From Sphaerochaetaceae bacterium (GTDB lineage Bacteria; Spirochaetota; Spirochaetia; Sphaerochaetales; Sphaerochaetaceae): a stretch of DNA of 35,073 nt. The first letter of the stretch is position 1; the number at the start of each line of letters is the position of its first letter. A program made the translations under genes and the position numbers. The DNA is taken from positions 1-35,073 of the forward strand of contig JAIKXP010000132.1 in assembly GCA_024684115.1 (NCBI GenBank), read 5' to 3'. This document shows positions 8,041 to 33,754 of the stretch, piece by piece. The notes under the pieces were generated by a model. The model did no database searches. It was not told where the DNA came from and was given only the letters and a program-made list of their open reading frames with translations.

Positions 8041-11000
8041 ATGACCGAATTTGTACATTTACATAACCATACAGACTTTTCTCTTCTTGACGGAGCAGCT
8101 CCGATCAAAAAGTACATGTCAAGGGCAAAAGAGCTGGGAATGAAGGCTCTTGCCATAACCGACCATGGAAATATGTTCGGTGTCATGGATTTTTATAACG
8201 CCTGTAAAGCTAATGAAATACAGCCTATAATCGGTTGTGAGTTCTACATAAGTCCCGCCGGAAGAAAGGACAGGGACCCGAACAACAAGTACTACCACCT
8301 CATACTCCTCGCCTGCAGTGACAGGGGCTACCACAACCTTATGGAACTCAACAGCATAGGCTGGACAGAGGGTCTGTACTACTCAAAACCCCGTATAGAC
8401 AAGGAAAGCCTTTTTGAGCACCAGGAAGGCCTTATCTGCTGCTCAGCCTGTCTTGCAGGAGAGGTGCCGCAGAAGCTTCTCTCCGCAAATCCGCAGGAAG
8501 CCTATGAAGTTGCAAAACAGTACAAAGAAGTCTTCGGAGACAGATACTACATTGAGATCCAGAACCACGGAATTGAAGATGAGATAACGGTGTTGCCAAA
8601 GCTTGCAGAGCTTGCAAGAACACTGGACATACCCCTTGTTGCTACAAATGACATACACTACATAAACAAGGATGACGCAAGGGCTCATGAAGTACTGCTG
8701 TGCATAGGAACCGGCGCAAGAATTTCAGATGAAAGACACATGAAGTTCGAAACCGAGGAGTTCTACATGAAGAGCCCGGACGAGATGGCCGAGCTTTTCA
8801 AGGACTACCCTGAAGCAATAGAAAACACGGTAAAAATAGCAGAGAGATGTAAGTTTGACATACAGTTCCCCGGACCGCTTCTTCCTGAAGTAACTGTTCC
8901 GGAGGGCTACAAGGACACTGTTGACTTCATCTCCCGTCTTGCCTGGACAGGCCTTGAAAGAAGGTACCCCGGCTACAGGGACAACCCGGAGCAGAAGGAA
9001 GTACTGGAAAAGAGGCTTAACTACGAGCTTGGCGTCATAATCAAGATGCATTTTGACTCTTACTTCCTGATTGTCCGTGACTACATAAGATGGGCCAAGG
9101 ACCACCAGATTCCGGTAGGTGCCGGAAGAGGAAGCGGAGCCGGAAGTCTTGTTGCCTACTGTATAGACATAACAAACGTTGACCCTATAAGCCATGACCT
9201 TCTGTTCGAGAGGTTCCTTAACCCTGACAGAATAAGCCTGCCTGATTTTGACGTAGACTTCTGCTACGAAGGAAGACAGGATGTAATTGATTATGTTACC
9301 GAAAAATACGGAAAAGACAGGGTGGGCCAGATAGCCACCTTCGGAACACTTAAGGCAAAGGCCGTAGTAAAGGACGTGGCTAGGGTTCTTGATATTCCGT
9401 TTGATGAAGCAAACCACATAACAAAACTCATCCCGGATGTAATACAGGTAGGAGAAGAGAACAAAAAGGTCAGCCTGCCTCTGGCTCTGGAATACATACC
9501 GGAGCTCAGGGCCTACAGGGACAGGGGAGGAGTCTATGAAGAGCTCTTTGACATCTCATCAAGACTTGAAAACCTCTCCCGCCATGTAAGTACACACGCC
9601 TGCGGAGTTGTCATAGGAAGAACACCGCTGAAGGATTATGTGCCTCTGTGTATGGACCAGAAGACCGGCGCCATTTCAACCCAGTACACCATGACATATC
9701 TTGAGGACTGCGGACTGGTAAAGATGGACTTCCTGGGACTCAAGACCCTGACGCTGATAAAGAACACACAGAGAATGATAAGGAAGAAGGAACCTTCCTT
9801 TGACATAGAGAAAATTCCTGACAACGACAGACAGACTTTTGAAATGATGAGTCAGGGAAAGAGCAAGATGGTCTTCCAGTTTGAAAGTCCGGGCATGCAG
9901 AAGAACCTCAAGCTTCTGGCCCCTGAGCGCTTTGAAGAGCTTGACGCCATGACCAGTCTTTACAGACCGGGCCCCATGCAGTTCATACCCAAATACATTG
10001 ACTCCAAACACGGAAGACAGCCGATTGTCTATCCGGACCCGAGCCTTAAGGAACTGCTGGAACCGACCTACGGAGTCATAGTCTACCAGGAGCAGGTTAT
10101 GAAGGTAGCCCAGATCTATGCGGGCTTCACCCTTGGCCAGGCAGATATCCTGAGAAAGATCATGGGTAAGAAAAAGAAGCACCTTCTTCCGGAACAGGAG
10201 AAGAAGTTCATAGAAGGAGCAGTCAAAAACGGACACACGGAGCAGGAAGCAAAGGACATCTTTGACATGCTTGCCCCGTTTGCAGGCTACGGATTCAACA
10301 AGAGTCACAGTGTGTGTTACACGGTTTTAAGCTACCGCACCGCATACCTTAAGGCCCACTATCCTGCCGAGTTCTATGCAGCAAACCTTACAAATGAAAT
10401 CTCAAGCGGAGACAAGTTCAAGGAGTACCTGGATTACGTAAGAAGCGAGGGAATCAAAATCCTCAGCCCGGATATAAACAAGTCCGAAATGTACTTCAAC
10501 GTTGACGGACAGAACATTGTCTACGGACTTGCAGGAATAAAGGGCATGGGCAGTGCAACAGTTGAACTCATACTCTCTGAAAGGGAGAAGAACGGACCGT
10601 ACAAGGACTTTTTAGACTTTGTAAGACGCTCGGATAACAGGGTTCTCGGCTCAGCCACCATGGAAGGACTCATTGAAAGCGGAGCCTTTGACAGCTTCGG
10701 CTACAACCGTCCGACCCTCATTGCAAACTACAATGACGCCATAGCCAGCGTAAAGGAAGACCGCGAAAGCGCAGCCATAGGCCAGAATTTCCTCTTCGGA
10801 GCAGAAGAGGAGGCCATGTCCAGCTTCAAGATGAGGACTGTTTCCGACTACGAATTCATCCAGAAACTTGAAACGGAGAAGAAGTACCTCGGTCTCTACT
10901 TAAGCGGACACCCTCTGGACGTTTACAAAAACAACTGGGAAGAGTGCGTAAGACTGGACCTCTCAAAGCCTGAGCGCATAAAACCGGGAGTAAAATACGA

Positions 11001-11511
11001 CTTTATAGGCATGATTACCGACTTCAGGGCCATAACCGCCAAAAGCGGCTCCCGCATGGGCTACGTGACCATAGAAGACTACAACGGCCACCTTGAAATC
11101 ACCTTCTTTCCCAAGCAGTGGTCCCTCTACGAAGCTGTAATTGACCACGGCAAGGTCTTCGGCTTCCGCGGAAGCTTCAAGGAGTACAATAACCGCATGA
11201 GTTTCTCATGCGATGCCCTGATTGCCGATCCGTCCTCCATGAAACCTTCCAAACCTGTCAGAACCTACATAGGTCTTGATGCTTCTGAAGGAGACAGGCA
11301 GGCCGTAATCGAGCTCAGGAACATATGCAAGAAGTATCCTGGCAGTGCAGAGCTTGAACTTCAGGTTTACTCTGCACCGGATGAAGACGGAAACTACAGC
11401 TCAAAACCGAGGCGCATACTTGCAGATGCCAGGTACTGCGTAGACGGCTCTTCAGCCCTCTCTGAAGAACTCATGGGCTGCACCGGTGTCCACTATGTCT
11501 ACTCTGAATGA
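8041..11511 (+). CDS. dnaE: DNA polymerase III subunit alpha (DnaE type)
   Basis: This is the replicative polymerase catalytic subunit, 1156 residues, as expected for DnaE1. The PHP domain comes first: HLHNHTDFSLLDG at 6-18, TDHGNMFG near 40, and NDIHYINKDD near 204. Its metal-binding histidines and acidic residues look intact, so PHP exonuclease activity is possible. The palm carries PDFDVDF (401-407, catalytic Asp402 and Asp404) and KMDFLGLKTL with the third Asp at about 563. A tandem HhH region and an OB-fold (about 990-1070) follow. The short C-terminus is consistent with a beta-clamp binding tail, which I did not pinpoint. It overlaps recG by 17 bases. Confidence 0.97.
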   Translation: MTEFVHLHNHTDFSLLDGAAPIKKYMSRAKELGMKALAITDHGNMFGVMDFYNACKANEIQPIIGCEFYISPAGRKDRDPNNKYYHLILLACSDRGYHNLMELNSIGWTEGLYYSKPRIDKESLFEHQEGLICCSACLAGEVPQKLLSANPQEAYEVAKQYKEVFGDRYYIEIQNHGIEDEITVLPKLAELARTLDIPLVATNDIHYINKDDARAHEVLLCIGTGARISDERHMKFETEEFYMKSPDEMAELFKDYPEAIENTVKIAERCKFDIQFPGPLLPEVTVPEGYKDTVDFISRLAWTGLERRYPGYRDNPEQKEVLEKRLNYELGVIIKMHFDSYFLIVRDYIRWAKDHQIPVGAGRGSGAGSLVAYCIDITNVDPISHDLLFERFLNPDRISLPDFDVDFCYEGRQDVIDYVTEKYGKDRVGQIATFGTLKAKAVVKDVARVLDIPFDEANHITKLIPDVIQVGEENKKVSLPLALEYIPELRAYRDRGGVYEELFDISSRLENLSRHVSTHACGVVIGRTPLKDYVPLCMDQKTGAISTQYTMTYLEDCGLVKMDFLGLKTLTLIKNTQRMIRKKEPSFDIEKIPDNDRQTFEMMSQGKSKMVFQFESPGMQKNLKLLAPERFEELDAMTSLYRPGPMQFIPKYIDSKHGRQPIVYPDPSLKELLEPTYGVIVYQEQVMKVAQIYAGFTLGQADILRKIMGKKKKHLLPEQEKKFIEGAVKNGHTEQEAKDIFDMLAPFAGYGFNKSHSVCYTVLSYRTAYLKAHYPAEFYAANLTNEISSGDKFKEYLDYVRSEGIKILSPDINKSEMYFNVDGQNIVYGLAGIKGMGSATVELILSEREKNGPYKDFLDFVRRSDNRVLGSATMEGLIESGAFDSFGYNRPTLIANYNDAIASVKEDRESAAIGQNFLFGAEEEAMSSFKMRTVSDYEFIQKLETEKKYLGLYLSGHPLDVYKNNWEECVRLDLSKPERIKPGVKYDFIGMITDFRAITAKSGSRMGYVTIEDYNGHLEITFFPKQWSLYEAVIDHGKVFGFRGSFKEYNNRMSFSCDALIADPSSMKPSKPVRTYIGLDASEGDRQAVIELRNICKKYPGSAELELQVYSAPDEDGNYSSKPRRILADARYCVDGSSALSEELMGCTGVHYVYSE

Positions 11512-13573
11512 TCTGAGGAAGATTCCCCTCTCAAGTGCCGCAGGAAACGGAAAGAAAACACTCTCCTCCTATCAGGCACTGGGGGTGGAGAACCTCTATG
11601 ATCTTATTAACCTCAGACCAAGAACCTACGAAGACAGAACTGGCAGGGTCTGCATAGGCGAGCAGGTTCCCGGAGGAGCCTGGACAAACACAATAGTACA
11701 GGCCCAGTCAAAGAGCTTTTTTGGAAAGGGACTTAAGAACGTAAAGATAAGTGTCAGGGACACACAGAGCGCGGTGCGCGGAGAGCTTCTGGGCTTCAAC
11801 CGTCCATACCTTGATAAGATGGTAGTAACGGGGAACTTCTACAGACTCTATGCAAACCAGCTCCCCGAGGGCTACAGGTACCCCCAGTTTTCAAAATTTG
11901 AACTCACGGCGCTAAACGACTTCACAGATGAAGAGAAGGCCGTATCCGGAGGACTTCTGGCCGTCTATCCGCTAAGCGGAAACCTGACCCAGAACATGAT
12001 TAGAAAGCACATGAGGGCAGCTTTCTCCCGGATTTCTGAGATAGAAAACGACCTTCCTGAGACCATGTACAGCAAGTTCAGGCTGATTAACACGGACAGA
12101 TCCTACAGAAACCTCCATTTCCCCAGAACAGCGGAAGATATAAAGCAGGCCCTCCGCACCCTTGGTTTCTCTGAAATCTTCTACATGCAGCTTCTTGCAA
12201 AAAGACGCTCTTCTTCTCCTGACGGATCTTTCAGGCGCTCCGTGACTCCAAGAATATATGAGAAAGAGAAAAAGCTCATAGAAGGCCTTCCTTTCTCACT
12301 CACGGATGACCAGCTTAAGGTCCTTAAGGAAATCAGGGAAGACATGTCTTCAGGAAAGAGCATGAACAGGCTTCTTCAGGGAGATGTCGGAAGCGGGAAA
12401 ACCCTCGTGGCCCTGATAGCTGCAGTTCACTGCATACAGGAGGGCCGTCAGGTTGCCTTCATGGCACCGACAGAGCTTCTTGCCCGCCAACATGCCATGA
12501 ACGCTGCAAAGCTCTTTGAGAAACTTGATATAAACACAGCCTTCCTGGACGGAAGCGTAACAGGAAAGGCCAGAAGCCTTCTGCTTAAGAACCTCGCTTC
12601 AAAGAACATTGACCTCATAATAGGAACCCATGCGCTTTTCTCTAAGGACGTAGAGTATGCGGACCTTGGGTTTGTAATAGTTGATGAGCAGCACCGCTTC
12701 GGTGTCGAGCAGAGGCGTGCCCTTTTCTCAAAAGGCCAGAACCCTGATGTGCTCATGATGACTGCAACCCCAATCCCCAGAACCCTGGCCCTTACCATAT
12801 ACGGAGACCTCAACGTTTCAACCATAAAGACCATGCCTGCCGGAAGGCTTCCGGTAAAGACCTTTGTGGTGGGCCCGTCCCGCAGGGAAGACATGTACAA
12901 TGCAGTGGGTGTTGAGCTTCAGCGCGGCCACCAGGCCTATTTCATCTACCCCAGAATCGGAGATGACACGGATGAAGAGCACGAGAGCGAACTCAAGGAT
13001 GTTACCACCATGTACTCCTTCCTCTCCGAAAAGTACAGCGGCTTCAGGGGTGAGCTCATACACAGCCGCCTTCCTGACGAGCAGAAGATTGAAATACTGA
13101 ATGATTTCAACACGGGAAAAATAAGTTTCCTCGTTTCAACAAGCGTTGTAGAAGTCGGAATTGACGTGCCCAACGCAACCTGTATGGTCATAGAACACGC
13201 AGACTTCTTCGGTCTCTCGGCCCTGCACCAGCTGCGCGGAAGGGTAGGAAGAGGAAAACTCCAGTCCTGGTGTTTCCTGTCCCCGGGGGACAATGTTTCA
13301 AAGGACGGCTTAAAGCGTCTTGAGGTGCTTAGAAACTCAAACGACGGCTTTGTAATAGCAGAGCAGGACCTCCTCCTGCGCGGTCCCGGAGAAATCTCAG
13401 GACTGAGGCAGAGCGGATTTACAAACCTCAGATTCGTTTCCCTGGACAAGGACCTGGACATGATTGCAGCAGCAAGACAGGAAGTTACAGAGCTTCTTGA
13501 AAGAGACCCCGGACTTCTTGAGGCAGATCACGCAGTAATAAGAAGAGCTCTGTTGGAATTACAGTCATTCTGA
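11495..13573 (+). CDS. recG: ATP-dependent DNA helicase RecG
   Basis: RecG regresses stalled replication forks and branch-migrates Holliday junctions. The 692-residue product has an N-terminal wedge/OB domain (about 20-200). Helicase motifs follow: QGDVGSGKT (295-303, Walker A), DEQHRFG (397-403, Walker B) and MTATPIPRTLALTIYGDL (about 415-432). The C-terminal helicase half contains VVEVGIDVPNATCMVIEHA and QLRGRVGRG. The ATG at 11495 is chosen; an in-frame GTG lies at 11486. Neither has a good ribosome-binding site, and the start lies inside the end of dnaE, so translational coupling is likely. Confidence 0.96.
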   Translation: MSTLNDLRKIPLSSAAGNGKKTLSSYQALGVENLYDLINLRPRTYEDRTGRVCIGEQVPGGAWTNTIVQAQSKSFFGKGLKNVKISVRDTQSAVRGELLGFNRPYLDKMVVTGNFYRLYANQLPEGYRYPQFSKFELTALNDFTDEEKAVSGGLLAVYPLSGNLTQNMIRKHMRAAFSRISEIENDLPETMYSKFRLINTDRSYRNLHFPRTAEDIKQALRTLGFSEIFYMQLLAKRRSSSPDGSFRRSVTPRIYEKEKKLIEGLPFSLTDDQLKVLKEIREDMSSGKSMNRLLQGDVGSGKTLVALIAAVHCIQEGRQVAFMAPTELLARQHAMNAAKLFEKLDINTAFLDGSVTGKARSLLLKNLASKNIDLIIGTHALFSKDVEYADLGFVIVDEQHRFGVEQRRALFSKGQNPDVLMMTATPIPRTLALTIYGDLNVSTIKTMPAGRLPVKTFVVGPSRREDMYNAVGVELQRGHQAYFIYPRIGDDTDEEHESELKDVTTMYSFLSEKYSGFRGELIHSRLPDEQKIEILNDFNTGKISFLVSTSVVEVGIDVPNATCMVIEHADFFGLSALHQLRGRVGRGKLQSWCFLSPGDNVSKDGLKRLEVLRNSNDGFVIAEQDLLLRGPGEISGLRQSGFTNLRFVSLDKDLDMIAAARQEVTELLERDPGLLEADHAVIRRALLELQSF

Positions 13574-13587: not shown

Positions 13588-15633
13588 ATGACCGACATAT
13601 CTCAGATATTTAAAAATGCACAGTCATTTCTCGTTGGAAGTTTTGTACTGTCAAAAAAGACGGGACGCTTTGAAAGCTCTCCGGTCAACACAAATGAAAA
13701 CCTCACCATAATAGGCGGAGGAGATTTTGACAGGGGAATCTGCATATTGGGAGATGAAGTTCCTGTTTTCCCTCTGGAAGAATCAACCTATCCGGGACAG
13801 CCTCTTTATGCTGTATTCGGAGACACCTATGAAGATGTAGAGGTATTCTGCAACAACTTCAAGATAAACTACATCAAGGGTAAGGTTTCCTCCTTTCCTG
13901 AAGAAGAAAATGACGACCTGTGCTGGGAGTTCTCAGATGTTTCTGCCTACGAAGATGACGTAGAGAAGAAGGGTTACAAGGTAATAAAATCCAGATTCAG
14001 GATTGATAAGTACAAGAGCCAGTCTTTAAGTGACAGAACGGTCTATGCCTTCATGGATTCTGATGTGCTGAGGATTAAGCTGGCCACCCAGTGGCCCCTC
14101 ATGGTCAAGAAGGAAGTTGCAAGAATCCTCGGACTGGACAGCAGAAAGGTAATAATTTACCCGCAGGACTACTATGCTCCCTATGACCAGCTTCTCATAA
14201 AACCGGTTTTTGCTGCAGTAACTGCTGCAAAGGCTGCAATCAAGACAGGTTCTGCCGTCTCCCTTACAGCCGAGATGTCTTCATACCAGCCGGAGATTAC
14301 TGCAGACATAGAATCCATACTTGATAAGGACAATAAAAACCTGGCCTACACGGTAAATGCTTCCATAGATGTCGGAGCCTTCTCCAACTTCTCATCGGAA
14401 CTCTGTCTGGGTCTTCTTTCAGGTCTTGTTCCGCCGTATGAAACGGAGAGCATGAAGATAAATATAAAGATAGTGAAGAGCAACACTCCTCCTGCAAGCA
14501 TGTTCTCAGACTCGGGTTACTCTACAGGCATGTGCTTCTCCGAAGCTCACTTCGGAAAGGTGACAAAGCTCTGCGGCGTGACACCTGACATATGGAAACT
14601 GGAGAACATAAAGAAAACAGAGCTGCATGACTGCATCAAGGTCTCATCCCAGTTTGACAGGATAAAGGACACCATAAAGGAAGTAACCAGCTCAAGCTGG
14701 TATTCACGCCAGTATGCGGTAAACAACCAGCCGGGAGTAAAGCACAGCAAGATAAACCCGTTCATTGACTATTCAAGAGGAATAGGGCTCTCCACCGGAG
14801 AGGGAACACAGGGCTTCTCCCTGTGCTTTGACTATCTCTCCGAGTACAGCACATCTGTAACTCTTGATGAGAAGAGGCAGGTTACCATAAGCTGCGGAAC
14901 CTCCCAGAACACAAACATGATGAGGCTCTGGAGCCTTATCGTAAGCCGTGTTCTCGGAGTCAGCCCGTCAGATGTATTCTTCAAGGACATAAATGCAGAA
15001 GGTGTTCAGGATGTAGGGCCGTCTGCTCTTTCAAGAAACGTAAGGTACATTTCCAACTGGATACTGCGTGCCTGTGAGGAAATAGCCCAGGCCATGAGGG
15101 ACGGCGAACAGATGCCCATTACCAGGGTTTCAAGAATCATTCCTTCCGACAGACCGATTGCCGACCATCCGCTTGAAAAACGCAGCGGAAAGGTTTTTGA
15201 GGTCTCCGGTTCCAGAGGCGTTATAACAGGAGCAGATGCTTCTGGAAGTGCCGTAATTGCCCTTTCAATAGATCCTGTTCTTCTTACCCCGGTTATAGAA
15301 AGGGTCTGGCTTGTAATCTCCATAGGAAACCTCATAAACAGACCTGTGTTCTTAAGAAGTGTCCGCCAGACTGCATCAAACGTCATTTCCGAAGTCTGTC
15401 CGTCTGCTGATATTAACTGCAAGATAGAGCTTGATGTTCTTGAGGAGCCGAAGGGAAGGTACGGCTCAGCCACATCACTGGTCAGAGGTCTTGTCTCATC
15501 GGCACTGCTCAGTGCCCTCAGTCAGGCTCTTTCAAAATCTGTTACAAGAATACCGGTAAGTGTTTCTGATATTGCTTCAGTTCTTGAAGCTTCACCAAAG
15601 GAGGATTCAGATGCTGATAAAGTGCACGATTGA
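13588..15633 (+). CDS. Xanthine-dehydrogenase-like large (Mo-type) subunit, motif-degenerate
   Basis: The 681-residue protein follows the layout of the molybdopterin-binding subunit of the xanthine dehydrogenase family but is shorter than the usual 750-800. Recognisable landmarks are an N-terminal hammerhead-like part (about 10-100), QWP at 168-170, SNTPPAS at 298-304, a GIGLSTGEGTQG segment at 398-409 and LSR at 481-483. The cofactor motifs are altered. GGxFG-type residues are missing after QWP (DYYAPYD at 194-200). The AFRGFG position reads MFSDSG (305-310). GQG reads SQN (439-441). The C-terminal catalytic Glu region reads GSATS (626-630). It is probably inactive as a Mo hydroxylase. It overlaps the 2Fe-2S gene by 23 bases. 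I recall a similar gene annotated as quinoline 2-oxidoreductase in Treponema pallidum, unverified. Confidence 0.8.
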   Translation: MTDISQIFKNAQSFLVGSFVLSKKTGRFESSPVNTNENLTIIGGGDFDRGICILGDEVPVFPLEESTYPGQPLYAVFGDTYEDVEVFCNNFKINYIKGKVSSFPEEENDDLCWEFSDVSAYEDDVEKKGYKVIKSRFRIDKYKSQSLSDRTVYAFMDSDVLRIKLATQWPLMVKKEVARILGLDSRKVIIYPQDYYAPYDQLLIKPVFAAVTAAKAAIKTGSAVSLTAEMSSYQPEITADIESILDKDNKNLAYTVNASIDVGAFSNFSSELCLGLLSGLVPPYETESMKINIKIVKSNTPPASMFSDSGYSTGMCFSEAHFGKVTKLCGVTPDIWKLENIKKTELHDCIKVSSQFDRIKDTIKEVTSSSWYSRQYAVNNQPGVKHSKINPFIDYSRGIGLSTGEGTQGFSLCFDYLSEYSTSVTLDEKRQVTISCGTSQNTNMMRLWSLIVSRVLGVSPSDVFFKDINAEGVQDVGPSALSRNVRYISNWILRACEEIAQAMRDGEQMPITRVSRIIPSDRPIADHPLEKRSGKVFEVSGSRGVITGADASGSAVIALSIDPVLLTPVIERVWLVISIGNLINRPVFLRSVRQTASNVISEVCPSADINCKIELDVLEEPKGRYGSATSLVRGLVSSALLSALSQALSKSVTRIPVSVSDIASVLEASPKEDSDADKVHD

Positions 15634-16111
15634 CGGAGTTTCACAGCTTCTGTCGGTAAATGCGGACAAACCTCTTAACAAGATTCTTCAGGAACGGCTG
15701 GATACGTTTTCTTCCAACAGCGCCTGCCGCGGTGCCGGCTGCGGAAACTGCGTGGTTCTCATAGACGGGCAGAGTGTACTCTCCTGTCTTGTTCCTGCTT
15801 TCCGCTTAAACAACACATCAATAATGACCATAGAGGGCTTCAAGTGTACCCGCCCGTTCCATGATATAGAGAGGGCTTACAGGGAAACCGGAATCATGCC
15901 CTGCGAACAGTGCTATGCATCAAAGACCCTTCTGATTGAAGGCCTTATGAACAAGCTGGATATAAACAAACCGGTTGGAGCCTCCCTTGATACCGTCTTC
16001 ATAGAAAGAGAGATGAGCATGAACAGCTGCAGGTGTCTTGAGATGAGACAGATTGAAATGGTAATAAGGGTTGCCATGATAAACAGGAGGAACAGAATTG
16101 TCAGAAAATAA
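15611..16111 (+). CDS. Xanthine-dehydrogenase-like 2Fe-2S subunit
   Basis: This is the small iron-sulfur electron-transfer subunit of a xanthine-dehydrogenase-type complex, 166 residues. The plant-ferredoxin-like cluster ligands are all present (Cys39, Cys44, Cys47, Cys59 in SACRGAGCGNC...LSC). The second cluster also keeps four cysteines (Cys98 and Cys101 in PCEQC, Cys140 and Cys142 in SCRC). The usual residues around the second cluster (QCGxCxPG, CRCTGY) have drifted. AAAGGAGG at 15597-15604 fixes the ATG at 15611; the longer upstream frame to 15560 is rejected. It overlaps both neighbours, so the three subunits are likely made together. Confidence 0.88.
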   Translation: MLIKCTIDGVSQLLSVNADKPLNKILQERLDTFSSNSACRGAGCGNCVVLIDGQSVLSCLVPAFRLNNTSIMTIEGFKCTRPFHDIERAYRETGIMPCEQCYASKTLLIEGLMNKLDINKPVGASLDTVFIEREMSMNSCRCLEMRQIEMVIRVAMINRRNRIVRK

Positions 16112-17009
16112 TTCCTCCGGAGTCGGAGTTGCAACAATCTATTCACCTAAGAGCACAAATGAACTCATAGGAATCCTCGCAAAGGAGAAAAACACGGTTA
16201 TCTTCGGCGGCGGAACCTACCTCATGTCAAGAAAGAGTTTCTATCCGCATCCGGACTTGAGAAACGTAGTCCTTACTTCAAGCGTGCCTGAACTTTGCAG
16301 GGTTTACCACTCTGAAAGCTATATTGAGGCCGGCTGTGCAGTAACGCTTCAGCAGCTGTTGAATACGGGAGCCTACATTTTAAGCAGACCTCTTGATAAG
16401 GCCCTCAACGCCCTTGGATCGAGCATGCTTCGCAGCCAGATGACCCTAGGTGGTGCCTTATGTACAAGGGATACGGTTTTCTCCCTCCCATGCTACCTCT
16501 CTGCAATAAACGCAGAGGTTGAAATCAAGATTTTCTCCATAAAGGGAAAGGGAAAGAGGGTTTCAACCAGATCAAGATGGTACTCAATAACAAAGCTCTA
16601 TTCAGTAGAAGGAAAACTTGAGATCCCTGAGAACTCGGTTATGACAAGAATCCGTATTCCTTCACAGGAAGGACTGAGACAGATTTACAAAACACTCGGC
16701 TCTCCCATGTCGGACCCGGAGTCTGCAGTTGTCTTTGCCCTGTCCTACAAGGATGGAAAGACCATGACTGAGGCTTCAATGAGACTGGCTCTTCCAAAGG
16801 CAGGTTTTTTTGCAAGCACCGACTTTGACACCTTCCTTTCAGGTTTTTCCTTCCCGCTTTCAATTGAAAAGATAAAGAAGATTTCAGAAGTTCTGGTTGC
16901 CAACATAGAGGCAACCCTGCCGGACGCAACACGCATCCAGCTTGAGAGGGCAAAGCGTCAGCTTCAGACCGTACTCTTTGAAATAAATACCCGCTATCTG
17001 CAGCACTGA
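16098..17009 (+). CDS. Xanthine-dehydrogenase-like FAD-type subunit
   Basis: The 303-residue protein has the FAD-binding PCMH fold pattern of the medium subunit: VIFGGGTYLM (34-43), YIEAGCAVTLQQLL (75-88) and LGSSMLRSQMTLGGALCTRDTVFSLPCYL (106-134). The last corresponds to the QIRNxGTIGGN...LP region. The start is a TTG at 16098, with AGGAGG at 16085-16090 at normal spacing. It overlaps the 2Fe-2S gene by 14 bases. FAD binding is plausible but untested, because several conserved positions differ from catalytic relatives (Asn after GG replaced by Ala). Confidence 0.85.
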   Translation: MSENNSSGVGVATIYSPKSTNELIGILAKEKNTVIFGGGTYLMSRKSFYPHPDLRNVVLTSSVPELCRVYHSESYIEAGCAVTLQQLLNTGAYILSRPLDKALNALGSSMLRSQMTLGGALCTRDTVFSLPCYLSAINAEVEIKIFSIKGKGKRVSTRSRWYSITKLYSVEGKLEIPENSVMTRIRIPSQEGLRQIYKTLGSPMSDPESAVVFALSYKDGKTMTEASMRLALPKAGFFASTDFDTFLSGFSFPLSIEKIKKISEVLVANIEATLPDATRIQLERAKRQLQTVLFEINTRYLQH

Positions 17010-17020
17010 CGGAGATAAAT

Positions 17021-17596
17021 ATGCTGAAAATGAGAATTACAGGCGGAAAATACTGTAACCGCAGGGTAATAATCCCCGAAGGAGATATGGAAATAAGACC
17101 CGCCATGGACAGGATGAGGGAATCTCTGTTCAGTATACTCGGACCTCTTGACGGATACAGTTTCTGTGATCTTTTCTCAGGCAGCGCCTGCGTGGGTCTT
17201 GAGGCCGCTTCCCGCGGTGCAAAAACAGTTCACTGTGTTGAAATGGACAGGAAAAAGCGTCAGATCATGGAGCAGAACATAAGTTTTGCAAAGGATGAGT
17301 GTGACATAAAGCTCTTCTTCTCCGACGTTCTTGTCTACATTCCGGCCTGCAAGACTAAGTATGATATAGTCTATGCCGACCCTCCGTTCCCCATGGAAAA
17401 CAAGACAAAGATTGCATATCTTGTAAACCGCCGTCAGATGGTTCTCCCGGGAGGCCTTTTCATAATCCACATTCCGGCAACGGAAGAGGATCAGTGGCAG
17501 GAGAAGATGGGGGACCTTGTTCTTGAAGACACCCGCAGGTACGGAAGGAACATGATAAAGTTCTACAGAGCACCCGAAAATGCCATTATTTATTGA
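17021..17596 (+). CDS. rsmD: 16S rRNA (guanine(966)-N2)-methyltransferase RsmD
   Basis: RsmD methylates G966 of 16S rRNA, using S-adenosylmethionine. The 191-residue protein has the family start MRITGGKYCNRRV. It has the substrate-region motif RPAMDRMRESLFSIL (26-40), the SAM-binding DLFSGSACVGLEAASRGA (50-67), and the catalytic ADPPF (119-123). GGAGA lies before the ATG. It follows the FAD-type subunit by 11 bases and is probably co-transcribed with it, although the functions are unrelated. Confidence 0.93.
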   Translation: MLKMRITGGKYCNRRVIIPEGDMEIRPAMDRMRESLFSILGPLDGYSFCDLFSGSACVGLEAASRGAKTVHCVEMDRKKRQIMEQNISFAKDECDIKLFFSDVLVYIPACKTKYDIVYADPPFPMENKTKIAYLVNRRQMVLPGGLFIIHIPATEEDQWQEKMGDLVLEDTRRYGRNMIKFYRAPENAIIY

Positions 17597-17621
17597 AGAA
17601 ATAATGGAATAAGACTATCAT
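17593..17621 (+). promoter_or_regulatory. Predicted promoter of ligA, leaderless
   Basis: TTGAAG at 17593-17598, a 17-base spacer and TATCAT at 17616-17621 form a good housekeeping-type promoter. The ligA ATG at 17628 begins 6 bases after the -10. There is no Shine-Dalgarno sequence. The -35 overlaps the end of rsmD. Confidence 0.6.
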
Positions 17622-17627
17622 TTAAAT

Positions 17628-19730
17628 ATGAAAATGGAAGATATACAGGAAAGGGCCCTGCAACTCAGGACCCTCCTTCTGAGATACCAGCACTCTTACT
17701 ACGTTACCGGAAAGGCGGAAGTCTCCGACCTTGAGTACGACAGGCTTTTTGATGAACTCTCTTCCATTGAAGAGAAGTACCCTGAACTTAAAACTCCTGA
17801 TTCACCTACGCAGAGGGTGGGAAGTGACCTTACCTCTGATTTCCCTGAAGTGCAGCACAGCATTCCTGTCCTGAGCCTGGATAAGGCCTACAGCGCCCAG
17901 GAGGTACTCTCCTTCATGGAAAGGTGCACGAAAAACGCATCCAGCGAAAAACTCAGCTTTGTTCTTGAAGAAAAGATAGACGGTTTTTCAATTGTTCTTT
18001 ACTACCGTGACGGGGTGCTGGAGAGGGCAGTTACCAGAGGAAACGGATATGTCGGAAATGACGTTACTGCAAACGTGAAGACCATTCAGGCTGTGCCTCT
18101 GAGGCTTACAAAGCCTGAGACTCTGGCAGTAAGGGGAGAAGTATTTCTTCCAAAAGAGGACTTTGAAAGAATAAACCTTGCTCTGGACGAGCCCTATGCA
18201 AACCCCAGAAACCTGGCCGCCGGAACAATCAGAAGAATAAAGAGTTCTGATACTGCAAGGGTGCCTCTCTCGGTTTTCTGCTATGAAGGATTCTGGGAAA
18301 ACTCCACCCCGTTCTACGACCACCTTCACATTTTGAGGGAACTTAAGGACCTGGGGTTCAAGGTAGACAGCCACTTAAGCTGCTTCTGCCGCACACGAGA
18401 AGAGGCTGAAGAAAAACTCAGGGACGCAGGGCTTGAGGGCTTTGCCGGAAGTTTTGAAGACCTCGCTGAAGACATAAAGAAGAGAAGCTCAGACAGACCG
18501 CACCTGCCTTATGAAATAGACGGACTTGTACTTAAGGTAAACGAGATCGGTCAGAGAGAGCTCATGGGCTGGACTGAACACCACCCAAAGTGGGCCATGG
18601 CCTACAAGTTTGAGGCTCCACAGGCTGAGGCTATAGTACAGGATATAGATGTACAGGTCGGCAGAACCGGCAGGATTACACCAATGGCCAGAATCTCTGC
18701 CACCGAGCTTTCGGGCTCGGTAATAAGAAATATTACCCTTCACAACCAGGATTATGTAGATGAACTTGAGCTTGCCATAGGAGACACAGTTTCCATCAGC
18801 AAGAGGGGAGATGTAATTCCTGCGGTTGAAAACGTAACTGAGAAAAACAGCAGGGGAAACACCACATGGCAGATGCCATCCCTATGTCCCGTCTGCTCCT
18901 CTCCGTTAATCAGAAAGGGTGCCCACCATTTCTGCAGCAATCCTTCCTGTCCGGCAAGGGAAAAGGGAAGGCTTGAGTTCTTCTGCGCAAAGAAGCAGAT
19001 GGATATAGAAGGCCTTGGAAGCAAAACCATTGAACTGCTGTACGACAGGGGCTACATAAAAACCATACAGGATATTTTTACCTTTAACTGGACCTCCCTC
19101 ATAGACAGGGAGGAGGGCTTCGGGCTCAAGAAGACAGAGGCCATAGAAAAGGCCGTAAAGGAAGCGGTTAAGGCTCCTTTCCGCCGCGTTCTTGTATCTC
19201 TCGGGATTCCTGAATTCGGAAAGAAGGCCGTGGATCTTGTCGTAGAGAACGGCTTTGACAGTATGGACAGGCTTTTAAATGAGGCTACTGTCGAAAAGCT
19301 CTCGGCAATAGGCGGAATAGGACCTGTTACGGCAAAGTACATAGTAGATTCGCTTCATGAGGAAGAGACTCTCAACCTCATCTCTGATTTAAGGCTCTTC
19401 GGTCTTAACATGAGTGAGAAAGAGAAGGAAGAGAACACGGAAGATCAGATTTTTGCCGGTCAGAGCTGGTGTGTTACGGGAACGTTCGAACACTTCAAGC
19501 CCAGAGACAAGGCAATGGAAGAGATAAAGAAAAGGGGTGGAACGGAGGTCAGTTCTGTCTCCTCTAAGACCAGCTGTCTGCTGGCCGGAGAGAACGCCGG
19601 AAGCAAGCTGCAGAAGGCAATCAGCCTTGGGGTTAAGGTTGTAAGTGAAGAGGAGTTTCTGAAGATGACCGGTCTATTCAGGAAAGAAGAGAGCACTGGC
19701 GGTGAGAGCCAGCCGGATCTTTTCGGGTAA
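17628..19730 (+). CDS. ligA: NAD-dependent DNA ligase
   Basis: LigA seals nicks in replication and repair, using NAD+ as the adenylate donor. The 700-residue protein has the Ia domain with YDRLFDEL (about 37-44). The adenylation motif is EEKIDGFS, with nucleophile Lys116. An OB-fold (about 320-400) follows, then a four-cysteine zinc finger (about 420-444), helix-hairpin-helix repeats (about 450-590) and a C-terminal BRCT domain (about 610-685). The ATG at 17628 fits a leaderless mRNA; a second in-frame ATG at 17634 cannot be excluded. It is probably the first gene of a unit continuing into the ModE-type gene. Confidence 0.96.
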   Translation: MKMEDIQERALQLRTLLLRYQHSYYVTGKAEVSDLEYDRLFDELSSIEEKYPELKTPDSPTQRVGSDLTSDFPEVQHSIPVLSLDKAYSAQEVLSFMERCTKNASSEKLSFVLEEKIDGFSIVLYYRDGVLERAVTRGNGYVGNDVTANVKTIQAVPLRLTKPETLAVRGEVFLPKEDFERINLALDEPYANPRNLAAGTIRRIKSSDTARVPLSVFCYEGFWENSTPFYDHLHILRELKDLGFKVDSHLSCFCRTREEAEEKLRDAGLEGFAGSFEDLAEDIKKRSSDRPHLPYEIDGLVLKVNEIGQRELMGWTEHHPKWAMAYKFEAPQAEAIVQDIDVQVGRTGRITPMARISATELSGSVIRNITLHNQDYVDELELAIGDTVSISKRGDVIPAVENVTEKNSRGNTTWQMPSLCPVCSSPLIRKGAHHFCSNPSCPAREKGRLEFFCAKKQMDIEGLGSKTIELLYDRGYIKTIQDIFTFNWTSLIDREEGFGLKKTEAIEKAVKEAVKAPFRRVLVSLGIPEFGKKAVDLVVENGFDSMDRLLNEATVEKLSAIGGIGPVTAKYIVDSLHEEETLNLISDLRLFGLNMSEKEKEENTEDQIFAGQSWCVTGTFEHFKPRDKAMEEIKKRGGTEVSSVSSKTSCLLAGENAGSKLQKAISLGVKVVSEEEFLKMTGLFRKEESTGGESQPDLFG

Positions 19731-19740
19731 GGAGGTTCTT

Positions 19741-20106
19741 ATGAAACTGAAGACCAAAATCTATCTTGAAGATGATAACGGTAAATTCATGGGTATAGGT
19801 GTGCTGTGGCTTTTAAACAGCATTCAGAGGCTCGGTTCCTTAAGGGCCGCAGCTGCAGACCTGGGTATTTCCTACTCAAAGGCCTATTCCATGGTTGAAA
19901 ACCTTGAAAATGCCCTGGAACACAGGATAATAGAGCGTAAGAGGGGTGGAAAAGACAGGGTCGGAGCCTGCCTTACTCCTTTTGCAACTTCATTTCTAGA
20001 AATATATGACGACTTTCAGAAGAAGTGTAAGGTTCTTCTTGAGAAGCCTTTTGATGAATTCATGGAAGAATACGTGAAACTGGAATCAGACGGAGAAAAA
20101 CAATGA
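19741..20106 (+). CDS. ModE-type winged-helix DNA-binding protein, no ligand domain
   Basis: The 121-residue protein corresponds to the N-terminal DNA-binding domain of the molybdate regulator ModE. The pattern is GIGVLWLLNSIQRLGSLRAAAADLGISYSKAYSMVENLE (about 18-56), then RKRGGKDRVGACLTPFA (about 66-82). The molybdate-binding TOBE domains of full-length ModE are missing, as in many short family members. AAGGAGG at 19729-19735 fixes the ATG at 19741. It sits 10 bases after ligA and overlaps the phosphofructokinase start by 4 bases (ATGA). Its effector and targets are unknown. A paralogue begins at 34826. Confidence 0.85.
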   Translation: MKLKTKIYLEDDNGKFMGIGVLWLLNSIQRLGSLRAAAADLGISYSKAYSMVENLENALEHRIIERKRGGKDRVGACLTPFATSFLEIYDDFQKKCKVLLEKPFDEFMEEYVKLESDGEKQ

Positions 20107-21422
20107 GCGGGAAACACGATTTTTCAATTAACAAGCTGGGAGAAGCAAAGATTCTTTCACCCATGATTGCAAATATGGGAAGGGACAGCTTCTCGGATTT
20201 CATTGAAGACGAAGACAGGGTTGTATTCAACCTTGAAACAAAAGTAGAAGACGGAAGGAGGGTTTCCGTTTCAGAAGACACCCTCGAGGTGGCCGGAGCC
20301 AGAAGGAAGATCTACTTCAACCCGGCCCATGTTCACGCCGCAATTGCTACCTGCGGAGGAATCTGCCCGGGACTTAACAACGTAATCAGGTCCGTAGTGC
20401 GCTGCCTCTGGTACAGCTACGGGGTGCACAGAATCTCAGGAATCCCCTACGGCTACCAGGGTCTTCTTCCTGAAAGCAGATATCCTATCATTGAACTTAA
20501 CCCGTCCCTTGTGGACGATATTCAGGAGAAGGGAGGCACCATTCTCGGTTCAGCCAGAGGTGGCGGAGACCGCACCTCTGAGATAGTAGACACTCTTGAG
20601 CAGCTGAATATAAACATTCTCTTCACAGTCGGTGGAGACGGTACCCTCAGAGGCGCCTATGATATTGCCCAGGAGGTAAAGAAGAGGGGGCTGAAGATAG
20701 CTGTTGTCGGTATTCCAAAGACCATAGACAACGACCTTGCCTTTATCCAGACTTCCTTCGGTTTTGATACAGCCGTATCTCTTGCCGTTCCGGTAATAAG
20801 AGGGGCACACGTTGAGGCCAAGAATGCAATCAACGGTGTCGGACTTGTAAAGGTTATGGGAAGGGGAAGCGGTTTTATTGCTGCCCACGCCAGCCTGGCC
20901 CAGAGCGATGTCAACTTCTGCCTTATCCCGGAAAACCCTTTTGACCTTGACGGACCGAACGGACTGCTGTCCCATCTCAAGAGGCGTCTTGAGGACAGAG
21001 ACCACGCTGTCATACTGGTGGCGGAAGGTGCCGGTCAGGACATTGTCCCTGCCACGGGACTTAAAGATGCCAGCGGAAACACCAGGTTCACTGATATAGG
21101 AGTCTTCCTCAAGGAAAAGATAGAGGAGTACTTCAAGAAAGAGGGACTTGAGGTTAACGTGAAGTATATAGACCCGTCTTACACCATCAGGAGCGCACCG
21201 GCAGACAGCTATGACAGTATCTACTGCGCAAGACTCGGTGCAAATGCAGTTCATGCGGCCATGGCAGGAAAGACGGAGCTTCTGGTAAGTATGATAAACA
21301 ACTGTTTCATACACATGCCTATCAAGGAAGCTGTTTCCAGGAGAAACAGAATTAATACTGAGAGTGCATTCTGGCGAGATGTACTTGAGAATACAAGACA
21401 GCCTGAATCAATGAAAAACTAA
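20103..21422 (+). CDS. 6-phosphofructokinase, plant/trypanosome-like long form
   Basis: This enzyme phosphorylates fructose 6-phosphate in glycolysis. The 439-residue protein is longer than the 320-residue E. coli PfkA, with an N-terminal extension of about 75 residues before the core (ATCGGICPGLNNVIR, 82-96). The donor-site motif is GGDGT (177-181); Gly at its fourth position favours ATP, whereas PPi-dependent enzymes have Asp there. The catalytic loop is PKTIDND (205-211), with Lys where bacterial ATP enzymes have Gly, as in the ATP-dependent plant/trypanosome subgroup. ATP use is therefore predicted, though many spirochaete homologues are annotated as PPi-dependent. It is coupled to the preceding regulator gene. 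Confidence 0.9.
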   Translation: MSGKHDFSINKLGEAKILSPMIANMGRDSFSDFIEDEDRVVFNLETKVEDGRRVSVSEDTLEVAGARRKIYFNPAHVHAAIATCGGICPGLNNVIRSVVRCLWYSYGVHRISGIPYGYQGLLPESRYPIIELNPSLVDDIQEKGGTILGSARGGGDRTSEIVDTLEQLNINILFTVGGDGTLRGAYDIAQEVKKRGLKIAVVGIPKTIDNDLAFIQTSFGFDTAVSLAVPVIRGAHVEAKNAINGVGLVKVMGRGSGFIAAHASLAQSDVNFCLIPENPFDLDGPNGLLSHLKRRLEDRDHAVILVAEGAGQDIVPATGLKDASGNTRFTDIGVFLKEKIEEYFKKEGLEVNVKYIDPSYTIRSAPADSYDSIYCARLGANAVHAAMAGKTELLVSMINNCFIHMPIKEAVSRRNRINTESAFWRDVLENTRQPESMKN

Positions 21423-21432
21423 GGAAGGGTTT

Positions 21433-23247
21433 ATGCTGAGGAAAGGAAAGGTTATCCACCTTGCACTGATGGATACCTGTTGTATTGCTATTGCAAATAT
21501 ATTGGGACACTGGCTTGTTACGGGAAACATTCATGACTTTAATCCCAAAATACTTATCGGTGTTGTTTTACTGTATGAGGCTTCCCTTCTTGTTTCAGGG
21601 TTCTACAGAATAAGGATTGCAAACAGCTCAATAGAACTTGTAAGGAAGGCTGTAATCTACCTTGTACCGGTAACGCTTCTAGCCTTCTTTGTCTGCGGCA
21701 TGCTTTACGGGTTCACGGGAAATCTGTGCAGGAGCGTACTGGCCGGCGGAATTCTGTCATTTATGGCTGTAATTGCCATGCGTACCCTATACAGAATGAT
21801 GCTCATGAGGGCAAGTCTTGAGAAGAACGGCAACCTGCCCACAGCCCTAGTCTACGGAGCCGGTGAGCTCGGTTCAGCCATGGCAAGGCTTTCCGGAAAG
21901 GGAAAGTTTCCGTACAGGGTTACAGGTTTTATTGATGATGACCCGAAGCTTCACGGAGAGTACCAGTTTGATGTGCCCGTCCTGGGATCCATAAAGGATT
22001 TAAAATCAATCTTCTCTTCCCGAAAGTTCAACTACCTCATAATAGCCGTAACCGGTATTTCTCCGGATAAGGTTCATAAGGCTGCAACTGAAGCGAAAAA
22101 TGCAGGAGTGGAAGTAAAGATAGTTCCGGCCCTGTTCGAGGCAAAGGGAAGGGCAGATGTGTCTGTCAGAGATATTGACTACGCAGACCTTCTGGGCAGA
22201 AAACTCTACACAATAGACAAAGAGCCCCTGTTTGACATGCTCGACGGCAAGACTGTTCTGGTAACAGGAGCCGGCGGCTCAATCGGAAGTGAAATCTGCA
22301 GACAGATTCTTAACTACAACCCCAGGCGCCTGATTCTTCTTGATATTGATGAAACAGAGCTTCATGACGGAGCCCTGAGGCTCTTGGGTTATGAGGGTGA
22401 GTGGTCTGATACGGTTGTACCGGTTGTATGTGACATAAGAAACGCTGAGAAGGTTCAGAGGATACTGGACCAGTACAAACCGGACCTTATCTTCCACGCT
22501 GCTGCCTACAAGCATGTTCCGCTTATGGAGAAATTTCCTGAAGAAGCAGTTACTACGAATATCTGCGGAAGCTACAATGTCTTCTCTGCTGCAAAGAAGA
22601 GCGGGGTCAAGAAGGTTGTAGTAATCTCAACCGACAAGGCTGTAAACCCGACAAACGTAATGGGCTGCACCAAGAGGGTTGTAGAGATGATGGCTTCTGC
22701 CTTAAACAGCCCGAAGACGGAGTTCTGCTGCGTGAGGTTCGGAAACGTAATAGGCTCAAGAGGCTCCATGCTTCCGCTGTTCCTTGAAGAGATTAAGGCA
22801 GGCCACCCGATTACGGTCACCGACCGCAGAATCATAAGGTACTTCATGGCCATTCCTGAAGCAGTATCTCTCGTATTCAGGGCTGCTACAATTGCAAAGG
22901 GCGGAGAAGTCATGGTTCTTGATATGGGTGAGCCGGTTAAGATATATGACTTTGCACAGCACCTGATAGATGTCTTCGGTGACGGAAGGTCCTCCATTAA
23001 GGTCATAGGACTGAGACCGGGAGAGAAACTGTACGAGGAGCTTCTTGCAGACAAGGATAACACCATTCCGACTGAGGCGGACAAGATCTTCAAGGCAAGG
23101 GTTTTGAAATCTGCCTTTGAGGAGGACACTCTTAAAGACTTTATTGACGGAATAAAGAACATAAAGCCTCAAGAGGTTGAACCGCTTCTGAGGTCCCTTG
23201 TTCCTGAGTTTGACCACCATCTGAACAAAAACGGTGAGAGCGGCTGA
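21433..23247 (+). CDS. Membrane nucleotide-sugar 4,6-dehydratase (WbpM/PglF/CapD family)
   Basis: The 604-residue protein has an N-terminal membrane part of four hydrophobic segments (about 8-115). Next is a CoA-binding-like Rossmann domain (GAGELGSAMARL, about 141-152). The C-terminal short-chain dehydrogenase domain has VTGAGGSIGSE at 277-287 and STDKAVNPTNVMGCTK at 399-414. Met410 replaces the usual catalytic Tyr and Lys414 is kept, the pattern of UDP-GlcNAc C4,C6-dehydratases that start bacillosamine or QuiNAc synthesis for surface glycans or glycoproteins. AAGGAAGG precedes the ATG. The exact substrate is not determined by sequence. Confidence 0.9.
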   Translation: MLRKGKVIHLALMDTCCIAIANILGHWLVTGNIHDFNPKILIGVVLLYEASLLVSGFYRIRIANSSIELVRKAVIYLVPVTLLAFFVCGMLYGFTGNLCRSVLAGGILSFMAVIAMRTLYRMMLMRASLEKNGNLPTALVYGAGELGSAMARLSGKGKFPYRVTGFIDDDPKLHGEYQFDVPVLGSIKDLKSIFSSRKFNYLIIAVTGISPDKVHKAATEAKNAGVEVKIVPALFEAKGRADVSVRDIDYADLLGRKLYTIDKEPLFDMLDGKTVLVTGAGGSIGSEICRQILNYNPRRLILLDIDETELHDGALRLLGYEGEWSDTVVPVVCDIRNAEKVQRILDQYKPDLIFHAAAYKHVPLMEKFPEEAVTTNICGSYNVFSAAKKSGVKKVVVISTDKAVNPTNVMGCTKRVVEMMASALNSPKTEFCCVRFGNVIGSRGSMLPLFLEEIKAGHPITVTDRRIIRYFMAIPEAVSLVFRAATIAKGGEVMVLDMGEPVKIYDFAQHLIDVFGDGRSSIKVIGLRPGEKLYEELLADKDNTIPTEADKIFKARVLKSAFEEDTLKDFIDGIKNIKPQEVEPLLRSLVPEFDHHLNKNGESG

Positions 23248-32251: not shown

Positions 32252-33313
32252 ATGTCTAAAGAAAAAAGAAATCTCATTATTGCGGGAGTATTAATCGGAG
32301 CCATTTCTGTAGCTCTTGTCGCTTTTGGAAACCCTAAGAACATGGGATTCTGCATTGCCTGTTTTATCAGGGATATGGCAGGTGCTGCAAAGATGCACAG
32401 TGCAGGTGTTGTTCAGTATGTCAGACCTGAAATAATCGGCCTTGTTCTCGGAGCTTTCATAATCAGCAAGGCCACCGGAGAGTTCAAGAGCCGCGGCGGT
32501 TCAAGCCCCATGCTCAGATTCTTAATCGGTGCATTTGTAATGATCGGAGCACTCATATTCCTCGGCTGTCCGTTCAGGATGATTCTCCGTCTTGCCGGAG
32601 GAGACCTTAATGCACTTGTTGCCCTTGCAGGATTTATCTGCGGTATTGCAGTAGCATGTTTCTTCCTTGCCCGCGGATTCTCACTTGGAAAGTACTACTT
32701 CCAGAACAATATTGAAGGAACTTCCCTCAGTGCTGTAAACGCACTGCTTCTTGTTCTTCTCATCTTTGTTCCTTCAGTATTTGCATTTTCCGAGAAGGGA
32801 CCGGGTTCCATGCATGCTGCCATTATTATTTCTCTTGCCGCAGGCCTTATAGTCGGCGTTCTTGCTCAGAGAACAAGACTCTGCATGGTTGGTGGAATCA
32901 GAGACATAATTCTGGTCAGGGATTACACACTGATTGTCGGATTTGTTGCAATTTTTGTTGCAGCTCTTGCCGGAAACCTCATAACCGGCAACTTTAAGCT
33001 CGGTTTTGAAGGCCAGCCTGTTGCACACACAGCCCATGTCTGGAACTTCCTCGGCATGTTTGTTGTAGGACTTGGCTCAGCCATGCTCGGCGGCTGCCCG
33101 TTAAGACAGCTCATTCTTGCAGGTGAAGGAAACTCAGACAGTGCACTTTCTGTTGCAGGTATGTTCGTTGGTGCTGCAGTTGCCCATAACTTCAAGCTTG
33201 TCGGTAATGCAACAGAGAATGGACCTAACACATACGGAAAGGTTGCCCTGGTTTTAATCATTGTAATTCTTCTCTGCATTGCATCTGTAAGAACGTTTGC
33301 AAAGAAAAAGTGA
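32252..33313 (+). CDS. yedE: YedE-type putative selenium transporter
   Basis: The 353-residue membrane protein consists of two YeeE/YedE-type repeats, with about nine or ten helices. Conserved Cys-containing motifs are GFCIACFIRD (32-41), GCPFRM (105-110), RTRLCMVGGIRD (about 208-219) and GGCPLRQ (about 285-291). YeeE/YedE proteins import thiosulfate or other sulfur species; the subgroup next to selD is proposed, from gene neighbourhood, to handle selenium. Position upstream of tusA-, DUF3343- and selD-like genes supports the selenium assignment. Seven bases separate it from the next gene. Confidence 0.88.
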   Translation: MSKEKRNLIIAGVLIGAISVALVAFGNPKNMGFCIACFIRDMAGAAKMHSAGVVQYVRPEIIGLVLGAFIISKATGEFKSRGGSSPMLRFLIGAFVMIGALIFLGCPFRMILRLAGGDLNALVALAGFICGIAVACFFLARGFSLGKYYFQNNIEGTSLSAVNALLLVLLIFVPSVFAFSEKGPGSMHAAIIISLAAGLIVGVLAQRTRLCMVGGIRDIILVRDYTLIVGFVAIFVAALAGNLITGNFKLGFEGQPVAHTAHVWNFLGMFVVGLGSAMLGGCPLRQLILAGEGNSDSALSVAGMFVGAAVAHNFKLVGNATENGPNTYGKVALVLIIVILLCIASVRTFAKKK

Positions 33314-33320
33314 GGTAGAT

Positions 33321-33527
33321 ATGAAAGAAATTGACTGTTTCGGCTTAAGCTGTCCTATTCCTGTAGTCAACACTAAAAAAGCCCTTAAAGATAATCCGAA
33401 GGAACTTGCAGTTCTCGTTGATAACGTTGCTGCAAAGGAAAACGTTTCACGTTTCGGTAAGGCTATGGGTTATAATGTTGAAGTACTGGAGATAGACGGC
33501 GGATGGAAAATTCAGCTGAAAAAATAA
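33321..33527 (+). CDS. TusA/YedF N-terminal-like sulfur/selenium carrier protein
   Basis: The 68-residue protein has the TusA-family motif CFGLSCPIPVVNTKKAL (6-22), with the active cysteine Cys11 in CPxP. TusA relays persulfide sulfur; the version in selD neighbourhoods is thought to pass selenium or sulfur. The ATG at 33321 with GAGG upstream is preferred to the longer frame starting inside yedE. In many bacteria this domain is fused to a DsrE-like domain as YedF, whereas here it stands alone. Confidence 0.85.
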   Translation: MKEIDCFGLSCPIPVVNTKKALKDNPKELAVLVDNVAAKENVSRFGKAMGYNVEVLEIDGGWKIQLKK

Positions 33528-33754
33528 TAGTAGCAACATTTTATAACCACTATGGAGCCATGATGCTCAAAAAGGCCCTGGGAAAAAACGCAGTTCTGCG
33601 CCCCGTACCCAGGGCTCTTTCTTCTTCCTGCGGAACATGTGTGTTTATCACTGACGCAGACGAAAATGCCGTAAGAGATGCCTCTGATGAAAATATTGAG
33701 GCTATCTACAGAAAAAACGGCGACAGTTATACAGAAATCTGGAAGGCCCTCTAA
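33503..33754 (+). CDS. DUF3343 protein, putative Se/S carrier-like
   Basis: The 83-residue product overlaps the tusA-like gene by 25 bases in another frame and ends one base into the selD start codon. It matches DUF3343, with IIVATFYNHYGAMMLKKAL (8-26), VPRALSSSCGTCVFIT (35-50) and a C-terminal YRKNGDSYTEIW. Cys43 and Cys46 form a CxxC-like pair that could carry a chalcogen. The family is known mainly from gene neighbourhoods with selD and tusA-like genes, and its function is unproven. Confidence 0.82.
   Translation: MENSAEKIIVATFYNHYGAMMLKKALGKNAVLRPVPRALSSSCGTCVFITDADENAVRDASDENIEAIYRKNGDSYTEIWKAL

Follow-up and report, generated by a model that had tools for sequence, protein, structure and literature searches.

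What does a molybdenum (Mo) enzyme complex do after its Mo site has been destroyed? This question is raised by a three-gene operon on contig JAIKXP010000132.1 of a Sphaerochaetaceae bacterium (assembly GCA_024684115.1), of which we analysed one stretch of 35,073 nucleotides, hereafter the window. The first gene (13588..15633, +) encodes a large subunit of 681 amino acids (aa) with the fold of xanthine dehydrogenase (XDH) and a destroyed molybdopterin site. The second (15611..16111, +; 166 aa) encodes an iron-sulphur (FeS) subunit that retains all eight cysteines for two [2Fe-2S] clusters (C39, C44, C47, C59, C98, C101, C140 and C142), and the third (16098..17009, +; 303 aa) encodes a flavin adenine dinucleotide (FAD) subunit with the fold of the CO dehydrogenase medium subunit, in which the GGT and TxGG FAD loops are kept. 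The start codons of the latter two were picked from orthologues and Shine-Dalgarno sequences: ATG at 15611 and TTG at 16098 are each preceded by GGAGG, and the genes overlap their upstream neighbours by 23 and 14 base pairs, respectively. Sequence, structure model, tree and synteny together show that this operon has come down by vertical inheritance from an XDH-family heterotrimer, of which it encodes a presumably Mo-free form.

The homology of the operon to the XDH family exceeds chance. Pfam models matched it with MoCoBD_1 (E 3e-19), FAD_binding_5 (1e-16) and Fer2 domains, and a profile of 29 orthologous large subunits matched the aldehyde oxidase AOX3 (3e-32) as well as xanthine oxidase in the PDB. 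The AlphaFold2 model of the large subunit (predicted local distance difference test score, pLDDT, 86.7; predicted template modelling score, pTM, 0.88) has the fold of an XDH large subunit, and Foldseek returned xanthine oxidase at 1e-38 with TM-scores of 0.76-0.78. The sequence match to known structures ends near profile position 505. Judged by the limits of the profile alignment, the C-terminal part lacks about 75 residues relative to bovine xanthine oxidase. A preliminary description of the window had aligned the large subunit by eye along the Mo-hydroxylase scaffold and claimed the loss of GGxFG, AFRGFG, GQG and the catalytic Glu region. Alignment with intact XDHs from the same genome and the same phylum bore out both the register and the losses. 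GGAFGGK corresponds to the YYAPYDQL region (DYYAPYD 194-200, codons 14167..14187, +, in place of the GGxFGGK molybdopterin loop), AFRGFG to MFSDSG (305-310, 14500..14517, +), with loss of the active-site Arg, EMGQG to the SQN region (439), and GAKGMGE to the YGSATSL region (GSATS 626-630, 15463..15477, +), in place of the GxGE loop with the catalytic Glu. The positions given there for DYYAPYD, QWP 168, SNTPPAS 298, GEGTQG 404 and LSR 481 were exact, MFSDSG, SQN and GSATS read as stated, and the eight cysteines and the overlaps of all three genes were found again on the reread sequence. The site has, however, not vanished entirely. Gln168 (QWP 168-170, codons 14089..14097, +) aligns with the Gln that contacts the molybdenum cofactor (Moco) in true XDHs, and it is retained in 60 of 73 relatives, as is the Ser of the DxGPxxLSR loop in 55. 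We take Gln168 to be the position of bovine Gln767.

The same comparison across relatives separates two kinds of proteins. The equivalents of Gln767, GGxFG, Arg912, Gln1040 and Glu1261 are all kept in ten of ten true XDHs, whereas the 73 degenerate representatives keep the Arg in 2, the Gln of GQG in 5, the Glu in 20 and the Glu802 equivalent in 1. Thus GGxFGGK, the Arg of AFRGFG and GQG are missing almost everywhere, with GQG still present at locus L094, and the GxGE glutamate survives in some lineages, the window's not among them. This motif pattern looks as if a true enzyme had been eroded by degrees. A tree of 83 sequences, built by a quick method with its rooting not tested, places the 73 degenerate sequences and the 10 true XDHs on the two sides of one branch (SH-like approximate likelihood-ratio support, SH-aLRT, 99); the degenerate complexes are one group with a single split from true XDHs. 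The degenerate complexes at two loci of genus g22 (L056 and L057) are set apart by a very long branch (2.8 changes per site), and the usual ligA and dnaE neighbours were not found in the stretch fetched around them.

The loss of the Mo site is class-wide and ancient and not a quirk of one genome. The large subunit was found in 134 of 139 Sphaerochaetaceae genomes (E < 1e-9), with the order large-FeS-FAD at every locus of the family read to its end, and the triad was read directly in about 23 families of the class Spirochaetia; the open reading frames are intact in 22 Sphaerochaetaceae genera and in other families. A genome-contig search with the window protein alone gave no match, and an alignment of closer relatives (A4) did. 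The class-wide profile (A6) cannot separate degenerate from true XDHs, the true XDH of the window's own genome scoring 502 bits, so its counts were not used as presence counts, and the class-level count of 259 of 297 is an upper bound that mixes both kinds. No degenerate member was detected outside the class Spirochaetia, where the phylum matches inspected were intact XDHs; the phylum-level matches L163-L166 and L175, together with the class locus L176, were rejected as degenerate complexes on account of their intact motifs. The complex was also not found in family f19, which has small genomes and by inference represents the Borreliaceae. An extra true XDH with all motifs intact (L060:7010-9127, genome G094) was the top-scoring true XDH against the Sphaerochaetaceae profile, with 228 bits.

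The supply of cofactor points the same way. MoaC had no match in 128 of 139 Sphaerochaetaceae genomes, MoaA was not detected in most of them, and MoeA_N was absent from 32 of 32 tested (47 of 52 overall), with the Pfam controls positive in 11 of 14 reference genomes. In the window's own genome (G000, 92.9% complete), which the preliminary description had proposed to check for such genes, MoaA, MoaC and MoeA all went undetected. An ordinary Mo hydroxylase is therefore very unlikely in the window, because the site residues are lost lineage-wide and the genome lacks these detectable genes, and the earlier conclusion that the complex does not act as a Mo hydroxylase is, in our judgement, almost certainly correct. 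The same genome nevertheless carries a second XDH that is intact (contig C99, locus L076), with GGAFGGK, AFRGFG, EMGQG and GAKGMGE. This 748-aa protein lies in a purine/selenium-type cluster (G000:C99, 1-13300) together with a 960-aa XDH-like protein (L076:4-2886, -), whose N-terminal ferredoxin-like domain is without cluster cysteines (FAVRDSDDNEGFCGSD...). MoCoBD_2 proteins occur in 138 of 139 Sphaerochaetaceae genomes vs MoaC in only 11. Four genomes (G080, G093, G094 and G017) have MoaA and MoaC with MoeA_N undetected, an incomplete pathway. The window itself encodes a YedE-type selenium transporter and SelD (32252-34818, +), which fits either a selenium-dependent Mo hydroxylase or a selenoprotein trait.

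Loss of the site did not release the genes from selection. The ratio of nonsynonymous to synonymous substitution rates (dN/dS) of the large, FeS and FAD genes is 0.009-0.18 in close pairs from several genera, the cysteine-loss lineages not among them, and is comparable to that of ligA in the same pairs. This demonstrates purifying selection in several genera. With orthologues in nearly the whole family and motif loss fixed at low dN/dS, the earlier suggestion that the complex is maintained has held, and we have little doubt that it has a selected function. The operon thus shows both an enzyme fold kept under selection and class-wide motif loss, as in a pseudoenzyme complex.

We then asked what became of the other redox sites. 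The FeS subunit keeps all eight cysteines in 116 of 129 loci class-wide, and about 118 of 125 loci keep the FAD loops, GGT and TxGG being invariant in 26 Sphaerochaetaceae FAD subunits; selection therefore acts on a relay in most lineages, that of the window among them. Separate lineages have, however, lost parts of it. At L045, in a Sphaerochaetaceae genome that is a single contig and 99% complete (G077), all eight FeS ligands are gone, the one counted cysteine being an alignment neighbour. The subunit is otherwise recognisable, scoring 124 bits against the family model, and its predicted fold (pLDDT 84, from an alignment that included relatives) had only small subunits of Mo hydroxylases as top Foldseek matches in the PDB. 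At least seven cysteines are lost at L168, in the complete genome G164, and L156 and L168 keep at most one. The complete 1.14 Mb Treponemataceae genome at L161 keeps four of eight, having lost the four of the ferredoxin-type cluster, and Treponema vincentii (L137) keeps six, having lost two of the four ligands of that cluster. In family f11 (L086, L149), the GGT loop of the FAD subunit is gone from an intact operon. By parsimony, the tree requires four transitions to loss of the cysteines. Assembly error was rejected as the cause of this loss, since the genomes that hold L045, L168 and L161 are single contigs and the open reading frames are intact. Every redox site is thus dispensable somewhere while the three genes are still kept. 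The electron carrier suggested in the preliminary description accordingly fits most lineages, where the cysteines and FAD loops are kept, and fails as the shared function, because lineages without one cluster, both clusters or the FAD loop retain all three genes. In L172, L174 and their relatives (Treponemataceae genus g79), the CxC of the second cluster is changed to CC (SPCCT), which alters the ligand spacing of that [2Fe-2S] cluster.

Because the complex is kept under selection with its Mo site destroyed, and in some lineages with FeS or FAD sites destroyed too, the enzyme body must have a job other than its named one. The best reading, to which we would give an even chance with a Mo-free oxidoreductase as its main rival, is a Mo-free, redox-modulated scaffold or sensor. 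A true XDH would have been duplicated or repurposed early in the class Spirochaetia. Its large subunit would have lost, most simply in a single event, the residues for holding and using Moco, the complex having been retained under purifying selection since. In the window organism, the trimer presumably assembles without Mo, and FAD and the two [2Fe-2S] clusters should still bind; electrons could therefore pass between FAD and the cluster on the side of the former Moco pocket. The altered pocket or surface of the large subunit may serve to bind a ligand or a partner protein, with the FAD/FeS relay tuning this binding in most lineages, and relay-less lineages would keep the binding function alone. 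More broadly, a whole three-subunit redox enzyme may have become a pseudo-complex across nearly the whole class, losing Moco most simply once, shedding the ferredoxin-type cluster, both clusters or the FAD site independently, and being selected for binding, scaffolding or sensing by its body; we propose this generalisation only tentatively.

Several observations weigh against a scaffold or sensor. Eight cysteines in 90% of loci argue that redox activity itself is selected in most lineages, so that the label 'scaffold' may fit just the exceptional ones. Over longer times the complex evolves fast: within the genus, identity is about 54% for the large, 71% for the FeS and 56% for the FAD subunit, vs 87-90% for dnaE and 90-95% for true XDH subunits. 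The large-subunit residues conserved class-wide are mostly structural Gly and Pro with no obvious new site, and the Sphaerochaetaceae have a strongly conserved replacement motif of their own, FFGDLGYS, possibly the sign of a new active site. We place a scaffold or sensor, as opposed to a Mo-free enzyme, slightly below an even chance.

A Mo-free oxidoreductase, in which electrons from NAD(P)H or flavodoxin would enter at FAD and the two [2Fe-2S] clusters would carry them to, or alternatively from, a substrate in the altered pocket of the large subunit, is the strongest competitor, although we consider it rather unlikely. The retention of the cysteines and FAD loops in most loci speaks for it, as do the family-specific large-subunit motifs FFGDLGY, APxDE and DSGPxVLS. 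Further support comes from the operon outside the Sphaerochaetaceae and a few relatives, where the usual order is a CapD-type 4,6-dehydratase, a DegT aminotransferase, large, FeS and FAD, often followed by dnaE and recG. These genes abut or overlap, suggesting one transcript, and the ancestral operon probably also held the nucleotide-sugar 4,6-dehydratase and the aminotransferase, so the ancestral substrate may have been a nucleotide sugar made by these two enzymes. Such a relay is, however, broken at about four places on the tree with the operon intact. An obligate partnership with DegT was likewise rejected: DegT is missing in Sphaerochaetaceae with the complex (no match in the window's own genome at E 1e-30), and in genomes G149 and G151 DegT is present but no complex was detected. 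In the operon DegT sequences that were read, the lysine motif of aminotransferases, SFYxxK...GEGG, is kept, and the known [2Fe-2S]/FAD sugar-deoxygenation pairing is therefore not indicated. The link to nucleotide-sugar chemistry should be read as a lead to function and not as a result.

It is less probable still that the large subunit became a non-redox enzyme or took up a different cofactor in the former Moco pocket. D200, E271 and R374 are invariant in 29 Sphaerochaetaceae sequences and FFGDLGYS nearly so, which amounts to strong family-specific conservation at the old site, but the replacement motifs vary between families and the residues conserved class-wide belong mostly to the scaffold. 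A decaying, functionless relic would account for the fast divergence and for the successive loss of Mo, FeS and FAD sites in different lineages; it is highly improbable given intact reading frames across 22 genera and other families, including the complete 1.14 Mb genome, dN/dS far below 1, and eight cysteines in 90% of loci. Least credible of all is a working Mo hydroxylase with scavenged Moco and a rewired site, for which the partly kept Gln767 position and DSGPxxLSR loop may be cited, as may the intact XDH in a genome without detectable MoaA, MoaC and MoeA, which hints that scavenging exists in the Sphaerochaetaceae, whereas the active-site Arg, the GGxFGGK and GQG loops and the window's catalytic Glu are lost, and G077 has the complex with no other MoCoBD_2 protein and no MoaA, MoaC or MoeA detected.

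In the window, the operon is preceded by dnaE and recG (8041..13573, +), which are syntenic with it in much of the class, and followed by rsmD, ligA, a ModE-N-like regulator and phosphofructokinase (17021..21422, +), a neighbourhood conserved in the family; Sphaerochaetaceae loci mostly adjoin ligA, dnaE, recG or rsmD. A CapD-type nucleotide-sugar 4,6-dehydratase, whose homologue heads the operon in other families, lies at 21433..23247 (+). The regulator (19741-20106, +; TIGR00637, E 3e-17, below the cut-off) overlaps the phosphofructokinase gene and is syntenic across the Sphaerochaetaceae, though most of their genomes are without Moco synthesis.

A pseudoenzyme is usually one protein. In much of a class that includes Treponema, by contrast, an entire molybdo-flavo-iron-sulphur complex appears to have outlasted the loss of its catalytic metal. 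We found no earlier description of a Mo-free spirochaete complex in a literature search limited to open-licence papers. The natural cofactor-loss variants are ready-made mutants, and the complex gives experiments a concrete way to ask what the scaffold of a redox enzyme can do once its redox centres are gone. Where such genes are automatically labelled, for example, 'xanthine dehydrogenase' or 'quinoline 2-oxidoreductase', the label and any Mo-enzyme role inferred from it are probably wrong. Treponema pallidum TP0080, annotated as a 'quinoline 2-oxidoreductase' near 87-89 kb with CapD and DegT neighbours, would presumably fit L161; the motifs of L161 preclude an ordinary Mo oxidoreductase, and the name would therefore mislead. 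Compared with the xanthine oxidase family (XDH, aldehyde oxidase, CO dehydrogenase and 4-hydroxybenzoyl-CoA reductase), the window complex shares the three subunits, all folds, the FeS cysteines and FAD loops in most members, and one Moco-contacting Gln. It differs by the lost molybdopterin loops, active-site Arg and catalytic Glu and by the shortened C-terminal part, and the degenerate complexes sit in genomes mostly without Moco synthesis. The true XDH of the same genome belongs to the same superfamily and has the same three subunits, but all its Mo motifs are intact and its subunits are far better conserved within the genus than the degenerate large subunit (90-95% vs about 54%). The Moco-free form of Hydrogenophaga CO dehydrogenase (PDB 1ffu, by its title) indicates that the family scaffold can assemble without Mo-pyranopterin; there, the cofactor is absent from a normal enzyme, whereas the spirochaete complex has lost the binding residues themselves.

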